From the IMG/VR virus record IMGVR_UViG_3300030333_001316, positions 1 to 24,607 of that record: DNA of 24,607 nucleotides, one strand, 5' to 3'. This document shows, in pieces, positions 4,446-24,156 of the stretch. The notes under the pieces are model-generated. The model had not been told where the DNA came from. It did no database searches and worked only from the letters and a program-made list of their open reading frames with translations. The DNA comes from a virus. The translations under genes and the position numbers were made by a program. Numbering within the stretch: position 1 is the first letter of the stretch; every line of letters starts with the position of its first letter.

Positions 4446-4636
4446 TGCCAGATTTAACAGTAAGTTTTACAGATGCTCAATGGACAAGAATTGTAGCTGC
4501 ATCAAGCTATATCAAAAATGGTCCCGGTTTAAGTGGAGATGTAGATGAGGCTTTTTTAGTGGAACGGTTTAAAAAAGATATAGCAAATATTGTACAAAGA
4601 TACGAGCATGATACCGCATCAGTTGATGACTTCTAA
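4445..4636 (+). CDS. Small acidic protein of unknown function, tail-gene neighbour
   Basis: This is a 63-residue protein. Its ATG overlaps the stop of the tail protein (TAATG), with the RBS AAGGAG inside the upstream gene, so the two are translationally coupled. It also ends in TAATG shared with the next gene. No domain is recognised. The protein looks helical in its second half (VERFKKDIANIVQRYEH) and has no cysteine and no membrane segment. Its position makes a tail-associated or accessory virion role possible, but there is no direct evidence for that. Confidence 0.65.
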   Translation: MPDLTVSFTDAQWTRIVAASSYIKNGPGLSGDVDEAFLVERFKKDIANIVQRYEHDTASVDDF

Positions 4637-5016
4637 TGAGGCTTGACACCAAAGTAATTAAATATAGGAATCAAAATCCTTTTATGTCAACACGTCAAAT
4701 TGCAAGAGAGGTGGGAGCTTCTGTAAGTTGGGTGCATAATATATTAAAGACAGCTAACTTACCCACAAACCCACCTAAAAAGAAAAAAATTACTTATATC
4801 TGCCCAGAATGTAAAGAACTTGTTAATGCTAGACGTAAATTCTGTAGTGAGAAATGTAAATACAACTATAGAAATCCTCTACTTACTTGTCATTATTGCC
4901 ACGCAAAATTCAGAAGATCTAGGTCAAGAGTAATAGCAGCCATAAAAAGAGGCTGTGATCACATATATTGTGACCAAAAATGTACAAATAGAGCAAAAAG
5001 AGATAAAATTACTTGA
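4636..5016 (+). CDS. Helix-turn-helix plus double zinc-knuckle protein
   Basis: This is a 126-residue basic protein overlapping the previous gene by TAATG. Residues about 18-37 (STRQIAREVGASVSWVHNIL) read as a helix-turn-helix like those of resolvases and Sigma-70 region 4. Two cysteine clusters follow: C56-x2-C59 with C70-x3-C74, and C85-x2-C88 with C107, C112 and C116. The spacing resembles treble-clef or MYM-type zinc fingers. The C-terminus is rich in Arg and Lys. It probably binds DNA or RNA. Its stop codon lies inside the -35 box of the promoter at 5013. It could be a regulator of that promoter, or a degenerate homing-type DNA-binding protein; neither is shown. Confidence 0.75.
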   Translation: MRLDTKVIKYRNQNPFMSTRQIAREVGASVSWVHNILKTANLPTNPPKKKKITYICPECKELVNARRKFCSEKCKYNYRNPLLTCHYCHAKFRRSRSRVIAAIKRGCDHIYCDQKCTNRAKRDKIT

Positions 5017-5042
5017 CACGCCTACCCCAAATATGATATAAT
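5013..5042 (+). promoter_or_regulatory. Sigma-70-type promoter (P1) with extended -10, upstream of structured RNA and hsp20
   Basis: A perfect -35 box TTGACA lies at 5013-5018 and a perfect -10 box TATAAT at 5037-5042, with an 18-base spacer. A TG at 5034-5035, one base before the -10, makes an extended -10. Transcription should start near 5049, where the long closing helix of the RNA element begins. The whole 30-base unit is identical at 25 positions to the promoter at 21979. The -35 box overlaps the stop codon of the upstream gene. Confidence 0.85.
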
Positions 5043-5048
5043 TAATAA

Positions 5049-5182
5049 TGTATTAAGGAATAATATTAATATTCTGGAGTAGCCCTTGACTACAACTGAG
5101 AGTATCAAGGGCAAGAGAGGAGAAACTCAGAACTTCTCTCTAATACATAATAAGAATTAGTAATAATTATTCCATTAATACA
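5049..5182 (+). ncRNA. Structured RNA: long closing helix, three-way junction, two hairpins with complementary loops
   Basis: This lies at the expected start of the P1 transcript. Helix 1 pairs 5049-5064 with 5166-5182, broken only by a single bulged A at 5174. It continues through 5065-5068/5161-5164 (one bulge, A5165) and, after an internal loop, 5071-5075/5153-5157. Helix 2 pairs GCCCTTGA (5082-5089) with TCAAGGGC (5105-5112), and after a bulged C pairs TAC (5091-5093) with GTA (5102-5104). It closes an 8-base loop. Helix 3 pairs 5115-5122 with 5133-5140 (8 pairs, one G-U) and closes a 10-base loop. Loop 2 contains CTGAG (5096-5100) and loop 3 contains CTCAG (5126-5130), which are exact reverse complements and can kiss. 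Paired positions vastly exceed what AT-rich spacer would give. I know no family that fits. It could be a leader regulator of hsp20 or a free RNA. Confidence 0.75.
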
Positions 5183-5193
5183 ATGATACGGAT

Positions 5194-5232
5194 GGGGAGA
5201 TGCAGATAAATCATTGGATTACTGCACTCCCC
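5194..5232 (+). promoter_or_regulatory. GC-rich hairpin in the hsp20 leader, possible pseudoknot
   Basis: GGGGAG (5194-5199) pairs with CTCCCC (5227-5232) and, after a bulged A at 5200, TGCAG (5201-5205) pairs with CTGCA (5222-5226). An inner AATC/GATT helix (5209-5212/5217-5220) is possible. Alternatively, loop bases ATCATTG (5210-5216) are the exact reverse complement of CAATGAT (5181-5187) just upstream, giving a pseudoknot. No T-run follows, so it is a poor terminator. TCTCT (5233-5237) can pair weakly with the 3' part of the hsp20 ribosome site at 5252-5260, so a role in translation control is conceivable. Confidence 0.6.
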
Positions 5233-5261
5233 TCTCTATAAATTAATTATTAGGAGGAGAT

Positions 5262-5672
5262 ATGACAATAGCAACGAAAACAGCTGACCCTTTTGACATT
5301 TTTGCAGACTTTTTTAGTGATAAGTGGGTGGGTTCGACAATCCACAAGTATCCATTGGATGTAATTGAATCAGATACAGGGTATGAAGTCAAAATTTCAC
5401 TACCGGGTGTAGAAAAGGGTAACCTTTCTGTAACCTTAGATAAAGACACTTTAATAATAGAAGCAACAACTTCTGAAACTAAGAGTGATAAGAACAAATA
5501 TTTATACAGAGGTATAAAGACAGGTTCTTATAAAAAACATATTTCAGTAAAAGATTATGGTGTAGATTCTAAGAAGATTAGCTCTAGCTACAAAAATGGA
5601 ATCTTAACTATAACTTTACCTAAACATAAAGAAGCTAAACCTCAAACAATACAAGTAGCCATGGAGAGTTAG
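5262..5672 (+). CDS. hsp20: Small heat-shock protein, Hsp20/alpha-crystallin family
   Basis: This is a 136-residue protein starting at ATG 5262 after the strong RBS AGGAGGAG. The alpha-crystallin domain covers about residues 27-127. It includes ISLPGVEKGNLSVTLD, the central FERxF-like region replaced by YLYRGIKTGSYKKHI, and the family signature YKNGILTITLPK at 110-121. A C-terminal IxV (TIQV, 129-132) matches the tail motif that bridges subunits in oligomers. Known members hold unfolding proteins in a refoldable state without ATP. Phages carrying hsp20 are known in marine waters, where it may protect virion assembly. It is the first gene after P1 and its structured leader, and lies 3 bases before the sigma factor. 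Identification is firm; regulation through the leader is inference. Confidence 0.95.
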   Translation: MTIATKTADPFDIFADFFSDKWVGSTIHKYPLDVIESDTGYEVKISLPGVEKGNLSVTLDKDTLIIEATTSETKSDKNKYLYRGIKTGSYKKHISVKDYGVDSKKISSSYKNGILTITLPKHKEAKPQTIQVAMES

Positions 5673-5675
5673 CAA

Positions 5676-6209
5676 ATGGAGATAAACGATGAATTGATTA
5701 GGCAATGGGAACCTAAGATTCATAAAATGCTCCAAACATCGTATGTAGTAGGGTATGATCGAGAAGATTTAGCACAAGAACTTAGAATCGCTATTATGAA
5801 AGCGGCTAAGGCATATAAAGCAGACAGAGGTAGCATCTTTCATACCTACTTACATACCACGATGGTAAACACGATCAGAACTTTAATCAGTAAGGCACAG
5901 AAAAAGCCTATGACTGTAAGCTATGATGAAACATTTTTAGACTATGAATCTGATTTCTTACCTGATTTTATAGCAAAAGCTATTGGATATGAGGAAGAAT
6001 GGGAATTATTAGAACTAAAAGATGAATTATCAAAGTTTAATTTATCTGAACGTGAGAAAAGATTTGTTGAGTTAAGATTAGAAGGTTGGACTATGGATGA
6101 GATATCTGATGATATTGAGAAATCTGCATACAGAGTGCGTCAAAATCTTAGAACAAAGGTAGAGAAGATATTTTATGGTCAAGAGAACAAAGAAGAAGAG
6201 TCAATATAA
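5676..6209 (+). CDS. Phage-encoded sigma-70-family RNA polymerase sigma factor
   Basis: This is a 177-residue protein with ATG at 5676, 3 bases after hsp20. Residues 25-80 fit sigma region 2: DREDLAQELRIAIMKAAKAY, then YLHTTMVNTIRTLI, the -10 recognition and core-binding helices. Residues about 118-165 fit region 4: LSEREKRFVELRLEGWTMDEI as the turn before a recognition helix with RVRQNLRTKVEKI. The length is in the range of compact sigma factors without regions 1 and 3. It would redirect host RNA polymerase to phage promoters, probably later in infection. The promoters visible here are of host sigma-70 type, so its target sites are not obvious in this window. It overlaps the next gene by 35 bases. 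Confidence 0.85.
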   Translation: MEINDELIRQWEPKIHKMLQTSYVVGYDREDLAQELRIAIMKAAKAYKADRGSIFHTYLHTTMVNTIRTLISKAQKKPMTVSYDETFLDYESDFLPDFIAKAIGYEEEWELLELKDELSKFNLSEREKRFVELRLEGWTMDEISDDIEKSAYRVRQNLRTKVEKIFYGQENKEEESI

Positions 6210-12318: not shown

Positions 12319-12699
12319 ATGACAGCAGGATGGATAAATCCAAAAGCTCCTTATGACTTTACACAAGGAGAATGGAAAGATTACAAGAACAACTATCCAA
12401 ATTTATCATGGTCTGAATATAGACAAATGAAAGATTGGGATGTAGAAAACAGAATGGCGAAAGCACATAACAAAAAGTATAGCTTTATAGAAGCATACAA
12501 TAATCCAATTGATCCTGAACATTATCACTCTGCTATAGAGCCATGGGACTTTATACATGCAAATAAACTTGACTTTGCACAGGGAAATGTGATAAAATAT
12601 ATATGTAGGTATAAAAATAAGAATGGTATTGAAGACCTAAAGAAAGCAAAACAATACATAGAAATGTTAATTGATAAGGAGCAAAATGAAAATAAATAA
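12319..12699 (+). CDS. DUF3310-family phage protein
   Basis: This is a 126-residue protein. TAGGAGAATAAT precedes ATG 12319. The second half (about 55-120) carries the DUF3310 pattern: PEHYHSAIEPWDFI, FAQGNVIKYICRYKNKNG and IEDLKKAKQYIEMLI. This domain is widespread in phages and has been described as a nucleotide-kinase-like family; its true role is not settled. The N-terminal 50 residues (GWINPKAPYDFTQGEWKDY) form an added region with many aromatics. It overlaps the following HNH gene by 14 bases. The family call is good; the function is uncertain. Confidence 0.85.
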   Translation: MTAGWINPKAPYDFTQGEWKDYKNNYPNLSWSEYRQMKDWDVENRMAKAHNKKYSFIEAYNNPIDPEHYHSAIEPWDFIHANKLDFAQGNVIKYICRYKNKNGIEDLKKAKQYIEMLIDKEQNENK

Positions 12700-13528
12700 T
12701 GTAGAGATAAATAACGCAAGAGATGTATTTATTTTTTTTAAAGAGAAAGCTATATCCATAGGTAACCCATTACCACAGGATTTATGGAACATGGATTGGC
12801 AAACTTATACCTCTGGTCGTAGGGGTAAAACAAACGGGCATGAAAGAGTACATAGGGTGTATAAAAAAATGCAGTTGCTTTGGGAGAAACATGGCACTTT
12901 TGATTTACAAAAATGTGAGAATCCGTCTTGTGATGTTACAGCGTTTCCGGCATACTATGCTTTTTTTCGAGATGCTCAACATGAAGGTGGTTGGCTTATT
13001 GTTTTTCAAGGTGATATAATTAAAGCTACTGGAAATCCTAGACAAAAAAATTATAATGGAGAAGAAATTATGTGGCTAGAATTTGATCATATAAATCCTA
13101 AAACTAAGAAAAATGAAATGTCCCAAATGATTCAAAGGAATGAGCTTAAAAAAATATTAAAAGAAGATGATTTGTGCCAACTATTGTGTTTTCTTTGCCA
13201 TAGAGATAAAACTAAAGCAGAAGCTACTTTTTCATATAAAGGAAAACCTGAACTTCCATATGATGAAGCAGTTAGATTAATAAAAGAATATGTAAAACCT
13301 TTAAATAGAATTCATTTTGCTCCGGGTACAATACATAAAAATAGATATGGTAAAGGAGCATTAGACGAAGCTATAGAAAAAGCTAGAGCTAATGGTGATA
13401 TGGCGTTATACGATGACTTAAAACGTATACCTAGAAATCCATACGCTACATATAAAGAACGTGGAATAGATGTATCAAAGTTTTGGCGTGCTGTTACAGG
13501 TAATATAAGTTCAAGAGAGGGTAGATAA
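12686..13528 (+). CDS. HNH-type endonuclease-like protein
   Basis: This is a 280-residue protein starting at ATG 12686, after the RBS AAGGAG (12676-12681); a TTG at 12671 in the same frame is less likely. A zinc-binding HNH fold is indicated: C77-x4-C82 and C158-x2-C161 as the two zinc pairs, plus the conserved LEFDH (Asp134-His135) and CHRDK (His162) residues. HNH nucleases cut DNA. In phages they act in packaging, homing or defence. The coding sequence has more T-runs and AAA/TTT codons than its neighbours, hinting at separate origin, and it interrupts an otherwise compact gene string. It is probably a free-standing homing or recombination endonuclease; the exact role is open. Confidence 0.8.
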   Translation: MKINNVEINNARDVFIFFKEKAISIGNPLPQDLWNMDWQTYTSGRRGKTNGHERVHRVYKKMQLLWEKHGTFDLQKCENPSCDVTAFPAYYAFFRDAQHEGGWLIVFQGDIIKATGNPRQKNYNGEEIMWLEFDHINPKTKKNEMSQMIQRNELKKILKEDDLCQLLCFLCHRDKTKAEATFSYKGKPELPYDEAVRLIKEYVKPLNRIHFAPGTIHKNRYGKGALDEAIEKARANGDMALYDDLKRIPRNPYATYKERGIDVSKFWRAVTGNISSREGR

Positions 13529-21978: not shown

Positions 21979-22008
21979 TTGACAAAGCTACGTCAAATAT
22001 GATATAAT
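21979..22008 (+). promoter_or_regulatory. Sigma-70-type promoter (P3) before the portal genes
   Basis: A perfect TTGACA lies at 21979-21984 and TATAAT at 22003-22008, with an 18-base spacer and TG one base before the -10 (extended -10). Compared with the promoter at 5013, 25 of 30 bases are the same, including an identical 15-base run ending in the -10 box and CTAC at spacer positions 4-7. The expected start is near 22015. The RBS AGGAGG lies at about 22029-22034 for the gene at 22040. It would drive portal and later virion genes. Confidence 0.85.
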
Positions 22009-22039: not shown

Positions 22040-22492
22040 ATGGCTATTGGAAGTTTATTAAGAGACAGAGATATACAGTATGTTGCAATCAAAGATGATG
22101 CAACTAAAACATGGAGAATACTAGATACATGGAGCCCAGCATTAAAGGATTTTGATTCTGAGGATGATATTCCAGATGATAGCCCCGCAGTATCTATTAT
22201 AACAGAAGCTGCATTTATTGCATTGATTAAGGAAGCAACTCGTTTAGGTGTATTAGAAAATGCTTCTTTAGGCGGTGGTGAAGTAAATGATGAAGATTTA
22301 CTTGCATTAGAGCGTGAAAATCAAGAATTACACGAAAAACTGTCGAAAATGGAAGAAAATGTAGTAAAATATAAAGAGGAACCAAAAAAACCTCAATACT
22401 CAGAAAATTATGCGATAAAGGATAGAGCTATTCAAGCTATTATAAATCTTGCAGGTATGGCTGATGTAGAAAAAATAAGTGAGGATAAATAA
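22040..22492 (+). CDS. Acidic protein of unknown function preceding the portal
   Basis: This is a 150-residue protein, first gene after P3, with RBS AGGAGG upstream of ATG 22040. The N-terminal 70 residues contain a small mixed fold (YVAIKDDATKTWRILDTW, then AAFIALIKEATRLG). A coiled coil follows (LLALERENQELHEKLSKMEE) and a helical, lysine-rich end. There are no cysteines and no signal peptide. It lies 2 bases before the portal gene. It may be a portal-associated or head-assembly protein, possibly scaffolding, but no family is recognised. Confidence 0.7.
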   Translation: MAIGSLLRDRDIQYVAIKDDATKTWRILDTWSPALKDFDSEDDIPDDSPAVSIITEAAFIALIKEATRLGVLENASLGGGEVNDEDLLALERENQELHEKLSKMEENVVKYKEEPKKPQYSENYAIKDRAIQAIINLAGMADVEKISEDK

Positions 22493-22494
22493 TT

Positions 22495-24156
22495 ATGGCA
22501 AAACTATCAGAATTTCTTCCAGATGTTCCAGAGGTTGCTAAAACAATTGCTAGTTTAAACGAACAAATTAACATGTTGCAGTTGTCAAAAGCAGCAGGTG
22601 ATACCGGACAAGCTCCGACTATCGGTCTTGATCATGTTGTAAACACATGGGTCAGACATCAGATGGCATATCGTCAACAACTTGTAATGGATTTACAGAC
22701 TATTACTTATTCTGTACAAGAAATACGAGGTCCGTTGACACATATCACAGGTGAAGTATTTAGACGTGGTATGAAGATAAAACCTAAAGTAAAAGATCCT
22801 GATAAATCACAATTAGTAAGATTTAGTAAGTTCCTCACTGATTCAAACGTATTTGACCAAAGTCTTGAAGAAGTTTTAAGACAATTTCACTATGATTTAA
22901 ACTCTATTGATGATGCCTTTTTGTATTTAGCAAAAGAATATGAAGAACTACCTAACGGTAAACTAGGTGCAAAAGTAAAAGAAATCAGAAGGCTGAACCC
23001 TGCTCTAGTAGAATTTGACTTAGATGCGGCAGGTCTACCTAAAAATGCACATTTTATTTGTCCTATAGACAGAACTGATGTAGCTGAAGAACCGGGTAAC
23101 TCTAAAAAAGGTTACAAGAGAATACCTGCAATGTACAAATATTACCACAGAAACCAACACATGTACTTAGCAGATTCAGAAGTAATACATCTATCTAAGT
23201 TCTCACCATCTGAAACTTATGGATGGTCACCTATATTAACAGTATTTGAAAAAGCTCTAACACTTATAGGTATGGATAAAAACTTATACCGATACTTCTT
23301 TGAAAGAAAGATGCCTGCTTCTATGATCATGGTAACTACTGATGATCCTGAAAGTTTAAGAAGGGAAAGAGCACATATAGCGGCTCAAACAAGACTTGAT
23401 CCTAACTTTATACCTATGGTAGCAGTATCATCAAGAAACAATAGAGGTAGAGTTGACATGGTAAGATTGTTCCACACATTACAAGAGATGGATTACTTAC
23501 CAGTAAAACAAGAAATAAGAGAAAGAATTGCATCTATGTGGGGAGTATCTCCGACATGGCAAGGAACACCTGAAGCATTTGGTGGATTATCAAGCACTAC
23601 ACAGAACTTAACAGTGATGAGTAGAGTAGTAGAATCAGATCAAAGACTATTCCATGAAAAAGTATTCCCAGAATTGTTAAAAGCGTTTGGTGTAACTGAT
23701 TATGAAATAGAATTACCTAGACCTGAAGAAAAAGCAGATGCGACTATAATCTCTCACACTCAACAAAAAGTAGCTATGGCAAGTCAATTAAGTCAATTAG
23801 GATTTAATGTTGAATTAAAAGATAAAGATGAGACTGATTTATTAGAAATTGAATTTGTAGTGAGTGGTGAACCTGTTCCAACTGCTAAGATGCAAGGTGA
23901 ACAACAAGCTATGCAGTTAGAACAACAGCAACAACAGATTGAACAAGCTAAACAACAAGCTGAAATGGCTCAGATGCAAGCAGTTCTTCAAGAAGAATCT
24001 GAAGAGCCTACAGGCGAAGATGATGTTGAAAAGATGGAGAAAGGATATCCATTTAAAAACCTAGATGATTTCTTAGACTATGATCCTGAAGAAAAATCAG
24101 AAGATGATGAGTATTCTCATATCGAAGAAGTCGATGATGAAGAACATGATGACTAG
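22495..24156 (+). CDS. Portal protein
   Basis: This is a 553-residue protein with ATG 22495 just after the previous gene. Typical portal features are EIRGPLTHITGEVFRRGMKI near residue 75, then an alpha/beta core (EVIHLSKFSPSETYGWSPIL near residue 230) and a helical region with FFERKMPASMIMVTTDD. Next comes the stretch WGVSPTWQGTPEAFGGLSST before the C-terminal crown. The tail is Gln-rich (QAMQLEQQQQQIEQAKQQAE) and then very acidic, with a likely coiled coil. Portals form a 12-mer ring at one capsid corner, through which the terminase pumps DNA and to which the tail attaches. The identification rests on length, motifs and the place after terminase; the family call is good. Confidence 0.85.
   Translation: MAKLSEFLPDVPEVAKTIASLNEQINMLQLSKAAGDTGQAPTIGLDHVVNTWVRHQMAYRQQLVMDLQTITYSVQEIRGPLTHITGEVFRRGMKIKPKVKDPDKSQLVRFSKFLTDSNVFDQSLEEVLRQFHYDLNSIDDAFLYLAKEYEELPNGKLGAKVKEIRRLNPALVEFDLDAAGLPKNAHFICPIDRTDVAEEPGNSKKGYKRIPAMYKYYHRNQHMYLADSEVIHLSKFSPSETYGWSPILTVFEKALTLIGMDKNLYRYFFERKMPASMIMVTTDDPESLRRERAHIAAQTRLDPNFIPMVAVSSRNNRGRVDMVRLFHTLQEMDYLPVKQEIRERIASMWGVSPTWQGTPEAFGGLSSTTQNLTVMSRVVESDQRLFHEKVFPELLKAFGVTDYEIELPRPEEKADATIISHTQQKVAMASQLSQLGFNVELKDKDETDLLEIEFVVSGEPVPTAKMQGEQQAMQLEQQQQQIEQAKQQAEMAQMQAVLQEESEEPTGEDDVEKMEKGYPFKNLDDFLDYDPEEKSEDDEYSHIEEVDDEEHDD

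Follow-up and report, generated by a model that had tools for sequence, protein, structure and literature searches.

A new structured RNA with a three-way junction directly upstream of hsp20 in phages without a close cultured relative

Organization of the hsp20 locus

The analysed stretch of viral DNA, referred to here as the window, is the 24,607-nucleotide IMG/VR record IMGVR_UViG_3300030333_001316. Between a zinc-finger-like gene (4636–5016) and the small heat-shock gene hsp20, it contains a structured RNA that we call element A. The locus is organized as follows.

5013–5042, + strand: sigma-70-type promoter, TTGACA-18-TATAAT with extended −10 (TATGATATAAT), from a phage-wide promoter family; consensus match 12/12
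5049–5182, + strand: element A, structured leader RNA with a three-way junction; kept in five alleles
5049–5076, + strand: closing helix P1, 5' arm, 28 pairs with 5151–5182; two pairs with compensatory double changes
5079–5081, + strand: junction-closing helix, 5' strand, 3 bp with 5144–5146; C-G in three alleles, A-U in two
5082–5112, + strand: hairpin P2 with bulged C5090 and loop AACUGAGA, from folding
5096–5100, + strand: CUGAG of the P2 loop, candidate kissing sequence 1; complement of 5126–5130
5114–5141, + strand: hairpin P3 with loop AAACUCAGAA, from folding
5126–5130, + strand: CUCAG of the P3 loop, candidate kissing sequence 2; complement of 5096–5100
5151–5182, + strand: closing helix P1, 3' arm with bulged A5174, from the fold and the allele alignment
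5194–5232, + strand: hairpin B, core GGGGAG/CUCCCC, on the hsp20 side of the leader
5252–5257, + strand: Shine-Dalgarno sequence AGGAGG of hsp20, read from the sequence; outside elements A and B
5262–5672, + strand: hsp20, alpha-crystallin small heat-shock protein (Pfam PF00011, E 2e-19; phrog_432)
5676–6209, + strand: sigma-factor-like protein (PF04542, E 1e-10), the gene after hsp20; no terminator found in between

The −10 element of the promoter is preceded by TG. The complete consensus match places the predicted start of transcription at about 5049, which is the first paired base of P1, in agreement with the original prediction that the RNA begins where this promoter would start it. Seven related phage records contain 21 matches to the pattern TTGACN{10,20}ATGATAWAAT, against none for the reversed control. 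A second copy of the promoter family (21979–22008, 85% identical over 33 bases) drives the gene at 22040, the leader of which is short and unstructured. Neither a terminator-like site (including the region after hairpin B) nor a convincing short reading frame was found in the hsp20 leader. The search for Hsp20 in prokaryote genomes returned a single relative with 40% identity.

Fold of element A

The minimum free energy of element A is −43.1 kcal/mol, compared with −20.7 ± 3.6 kcal/mol for dinucleotide shuffles (z −6.2), none of which was equally stable among 200; the z-score of the entire leader to 5270 is −7.3. The fold reproduces the anatomy described in the original prediction: a closing helix in which one A is bulged, then a three-way junction carrying two hairpins whose loops contain CTGAG and CTCAG. 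Since the junction is closed by the 3-bp helix 5079–5081/5144–5146, its linkers are 0, 1, and 2 nucleotides long. Hairpin B, which had been overlooked, is a second conserved hairpin with compensatory changes of its own. Searches of Rfam at gathering and relaxed thresholds gave no family for element A, only chance matches of the eukaryotic snoRNA type and a weak match to caiA, in line with the earlier remark that no family with such a sequence was known. The literature search found no paper on this RNA. Element A is a real, new structured RNA family with a narrow distribution.

Complementarity of at least five nucleotides between the loops of P2 and P3 arose in 11 of 20,000 loop shuffles and is therefore unlikely to be due to chance, so that the proposed ability of the loops to pair holds as a 5-nt complementarity. 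CUGAG and CUCAG are unchanged in all five alleles; because the loops are invariant, covariation provides no test of the kissing contact. The two sequences may pair inside a single RNA or across two copies, or may bind another partner.

Conservation and compensatory changes

Related contigs were collected from IMG/VR by a protein scan and a DNA pattern scan. The full element A is present in the window and in about eight to nine related contigs, which together represent five distinct alleles including that of the window. Every carrier has one copy per record, located directly 5' of hsp20, and a scan for the promoter with P1 and a scan for hairpin B both returned the same ten contigs only. All five alleles fold at −43 to −46 kcal/mol, whereas equally diverged random mutants fold at about −24 to −30 kcal/mol; mutants carrying the same 15–16 substitutions were as stable in 0–6 of 1000 cases. 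Between the most diverged alleles, random mutants lose 13–20 kcal/mol and the real alleles lose nothing. The comparison of L002 to L008 on its own is not significant (100 of 1000 mutants).

In the alignment of alleles, 97.9% of the pair cells are standard pairs. Double-sided changes are found at six pairs: hairpin B has three, P1 two, and the junction one. Shifting the helices by 1–3 columns leaves at most one such pair. Compared with L002, the window has one additional pair in P3, due to matched insertions in both strands. Where one side alone has changed, the result is mostly a G-U pair on the + strand. In each of the five alleles, folding is also more favourable for this strand than for the opposite one, by 1.7–6.8 kcal/mol. 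The covariance model scores 145–154 bits in homologues, which are the same ones that were used to build it. Because the alleles are few and represent two main lineages, they record a small number of independent compensatory events. The original prediction had named drift of the stems without compensation as evidence against the RNA; the homologues instead keep the stems, with compensation at the six pairs. These comparisons indicate that the structure of element A is under selection.

The counterpart of element A in L002 (4376–4507) differs at 17 of 134 positions (87% identical), whereas the flanks are near 99% and the sigma-like gene 99.6% identical. The allele was therefore probably exchanged by recombination, and the related phages are mosaic at several further places. 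The swap of an allele inside nearly identical flanks, together with the loss of the interior of the element in L010 and L011, is what might be seen if element A were a palindromic mobile DNA element with P1 as its terminal inverted repeats and no role as RNA. However, a single genomic site was found in all searches, and the compensation and G-U bias indicate an RNA, which makes a mobile element extremely improbable. A gene of the window at 12671–13528 is not aligned in the close relatives G001, L001, and L008; it contains an HNH-like stretch recognized by eye, has no Pfam match, and perhaps encodes a homing endonuclease.

A pattern scan for the loops only returned 29 more contigs, none of which was convincing against the covariance model (best E 5), and many of these form a plain CTGAG/CTCAG stem. 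An unrelated short hairpin with such a stem is present in L089, L090, L091, L107, and L113, and is nearly identical across several contigs. Among annotated phages, the search by DNA gave chance AT-rich matches only, and the search by the sigma-like protein gave no match.

Leaders of hsp20 in related phages

L010 and L011, whose hsp20 is about 90% identical to that of the window, still have hairpin B, the promoter, and an 8-bp stem from the outer end of P1, but lack the interior junction domain at this site. The contigs L012–L017 and L018–L021 have the same promoter and gene with a short, unrelated leader, the hairpin of which starts near +2 in the former group and near +3 in the latter. The first paired base is thus +1 in the window, +1 in L010, +2 in L012, and +3 in L018, which was equalled in 0, 0, 3, and 12 of 500 shuffles; the stem in the L018 leader is weak (z −1.6). 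In L022, which lacks hsp20, the promoter and leader are also absent, and the preceding gene runs into the sigma-like gene. Elsewhere in these phages, the short leaders that follow promoters are unstructured, and some long stretches in such positions do fold. The leader of the promoter at G001:9174 in L047 is long and has a stem near +1, with a sequence unrelated to element A. In L010 and L012, the zinc-finger gene and the hsp20 promoter are separated by a small cysteine-rich reading frame, which resembles a zinc ribbon by eye and is missing in the window.

Because a 5' stem is present in every type of hsp20 leader, and short leaders elsewhere are unstructured, the constant feature is the paired 5' end, not the junction. 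As judged from the leaders compared, the junction domain is an elaboration confined to one clade. Of the roles originally suggested for the RNA, that of a regulator of hsp20 is supported.

Comparison with packaging RNA and the purine riboswitch

Element A shares paired ends, a three-way junction, and two pairable loops with the packaging RNA of phage phi29 (RF00044), and a three-way junction with loop–loop complementarity with the purine riboswitch (RF00167). The RF00167 model did not match the window, while it did match control genomes, and the linkers of the junction are too short for the purine core, as had been anticipated from the junction. The RF00044 model gave no match at E 10, in one of the searches without a positive control among its genomes. 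Membership of both families is rejected by these tests, and the resemblance in outline remains.

The similar outline and the complementary loops speak for an oligomerising RNA with loops kissing between copies, which would be a scaffold or take part in DNA packaging. The analogy fails on several counts beyond the lack of a sequence or model match. The phage encodes a portal protein and an ordinary large terminase of the phrog_38 type rather than a packaging ATPase dependent on such an RNA, and element A lies 12 kb from the terminase and in front of hsp20. The junction domain is dispensable in the close relatives L010 and L011, and the RNA was not found in an 81-kb relative; the records of relatives may be incomplete, so its absence elsewhere in their genomes is not fully proven. 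A role of this kind is, in our estimate, hardly probable at all. The portal protein (22495–24156) has its nearest annotated relatives, at about 26% identity, in the haloarchaeal tailed viruses HVTV-1, HCTV-1, and HCTV-5; despite this, the promoters and ribosome sites of the phage look bacterial. The structured RNAs manA, wcaG, and PhotoRC-II of marine cyanophages also lie beside host-like genes; however, element A matches none of these Rfam models.

Possible function of the leader

Element A and hairpin B may form the 5' untranslated leader of an mRNA carrying the hsp20, sigma-like, and helicase genes. A message that starts base-paired would offer no single-stranded 5' end to the pyrophosphohydrolase or to 5'-end-dependent nucleases, and would be longer-lived; hairpin B would be a second barrier 5' of the ribosome site. 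It has been shown that RNase E and RppH are slowed by a base-paired 5' end, and that bla mRNA is stabilised by an added 5' hairpin (PMC3997798). The stabilising 5' stem-loops of ompA, papA, and aprE resemble element A in having few or no unpaired 5' bases, a long mRNA, and a free Shine-Dalgarno sequence, and in the window the stem begins at +1, itself a predicted position, with the Shine-Dalgarno sequence outside the stem. By contrast, those leaders are simple hairpins, whereas element A has 134 nt, a junction, and complementary loops, and is followed by hairpin B. In the clade of the window, the 5' stem would have been expanded to a three-way junction that a loop–loop contact possibly locks. 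This expansion would make unfolding of the leader more difficult and could provide a binding site. The free Shine-Dalgarno sequence, the lack of a terminator-like site, and the stem from the first base make shielding the simplest account. We consider a cis-acting leader that shields the mRNA of hsp20 and the replication operon from 5'-end-dependent decay to be the best explanation, held with about even confidence.

Since a plain hairpin suffices for shielding, this account leaves over the junction and the invariant loops, and these features, together with the above-chance complementarity, are what a sensing leader would explain. The junction and kissing loops would then be a receptor for a phage or host protein, Hsp20 itself, or a small molecule, altering the translation or decay of hsp20 mRNA. 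A precedent is IbpA of Escherichia coli, which acts through the 5' UTR to repress the mRNA that encodes it, and in which Arg93 is irreplaceable (PMC10474464). However, Arg93 aligns with a glycine, Gly88, that does not vary among seven phage proteins; this weakens autoregulation of the IbpA type, though the phage protein may bind in a different way. Elements A and B form no alternative fold hiding the Shine-Dalgarno sequence, no riboswitch of Rfam was matched, and the junction domain is lost from L010 and L011; we give sensing a confidence well below even. Leaders of the ROSE type are found on proteobacterial small heat-shock genes, and they and the IbpA-bound leaders share with elements A and B a multi-hairpin architecture in front of an hsp20-family gene. 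An RNA thermometer of this type is nevertheless very unlikely here, because the Shine-Dalgarno sequence lies outside the structure. It has modest predicted pairing with the coding sequence, and warming from 4 to 42 °C raises its unpaired probability gradually, from 0.22 to 0.37. A well-folded unit from +1 with exposed complementary loops could also be processed from the leader as a discrete RNA acting in trans on other RNAs or proteins. Against this stand the missing terminator-like site, antisense matches to the window that are no longer than those of shuffles, and the single copy always directly 5' of hsp20, and we regard it as unlikely.

Within the shielding account, an added role of the junction and loops, as a harder nuclease roadblock or as a site for a protein or ligand, is likely but unproven. 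More speculatively, and only as a tentative proposal, a 5'-terminal three-way junction locked by a loop contact may block 5'-dependent nucleases or sense a protein. Such leaders would be a new class in phages and, in bacteria, the counterpart of the junction RNAs with which other viruses resist nucleases.

Element A is a compact, evolutionarily supported structured RNA without an Rfam entry, in phages without a close cultured relative. Its natural variants, with the full junction, the 8-bp stub, or unrelated hairpins, provide a ready-made comparison series. If sensing is its function, element A would be a new regulatory RNA; if shielding is, it would show that phages build elaborate 5' structures with which their messages outlast the mRNA decay of the host.
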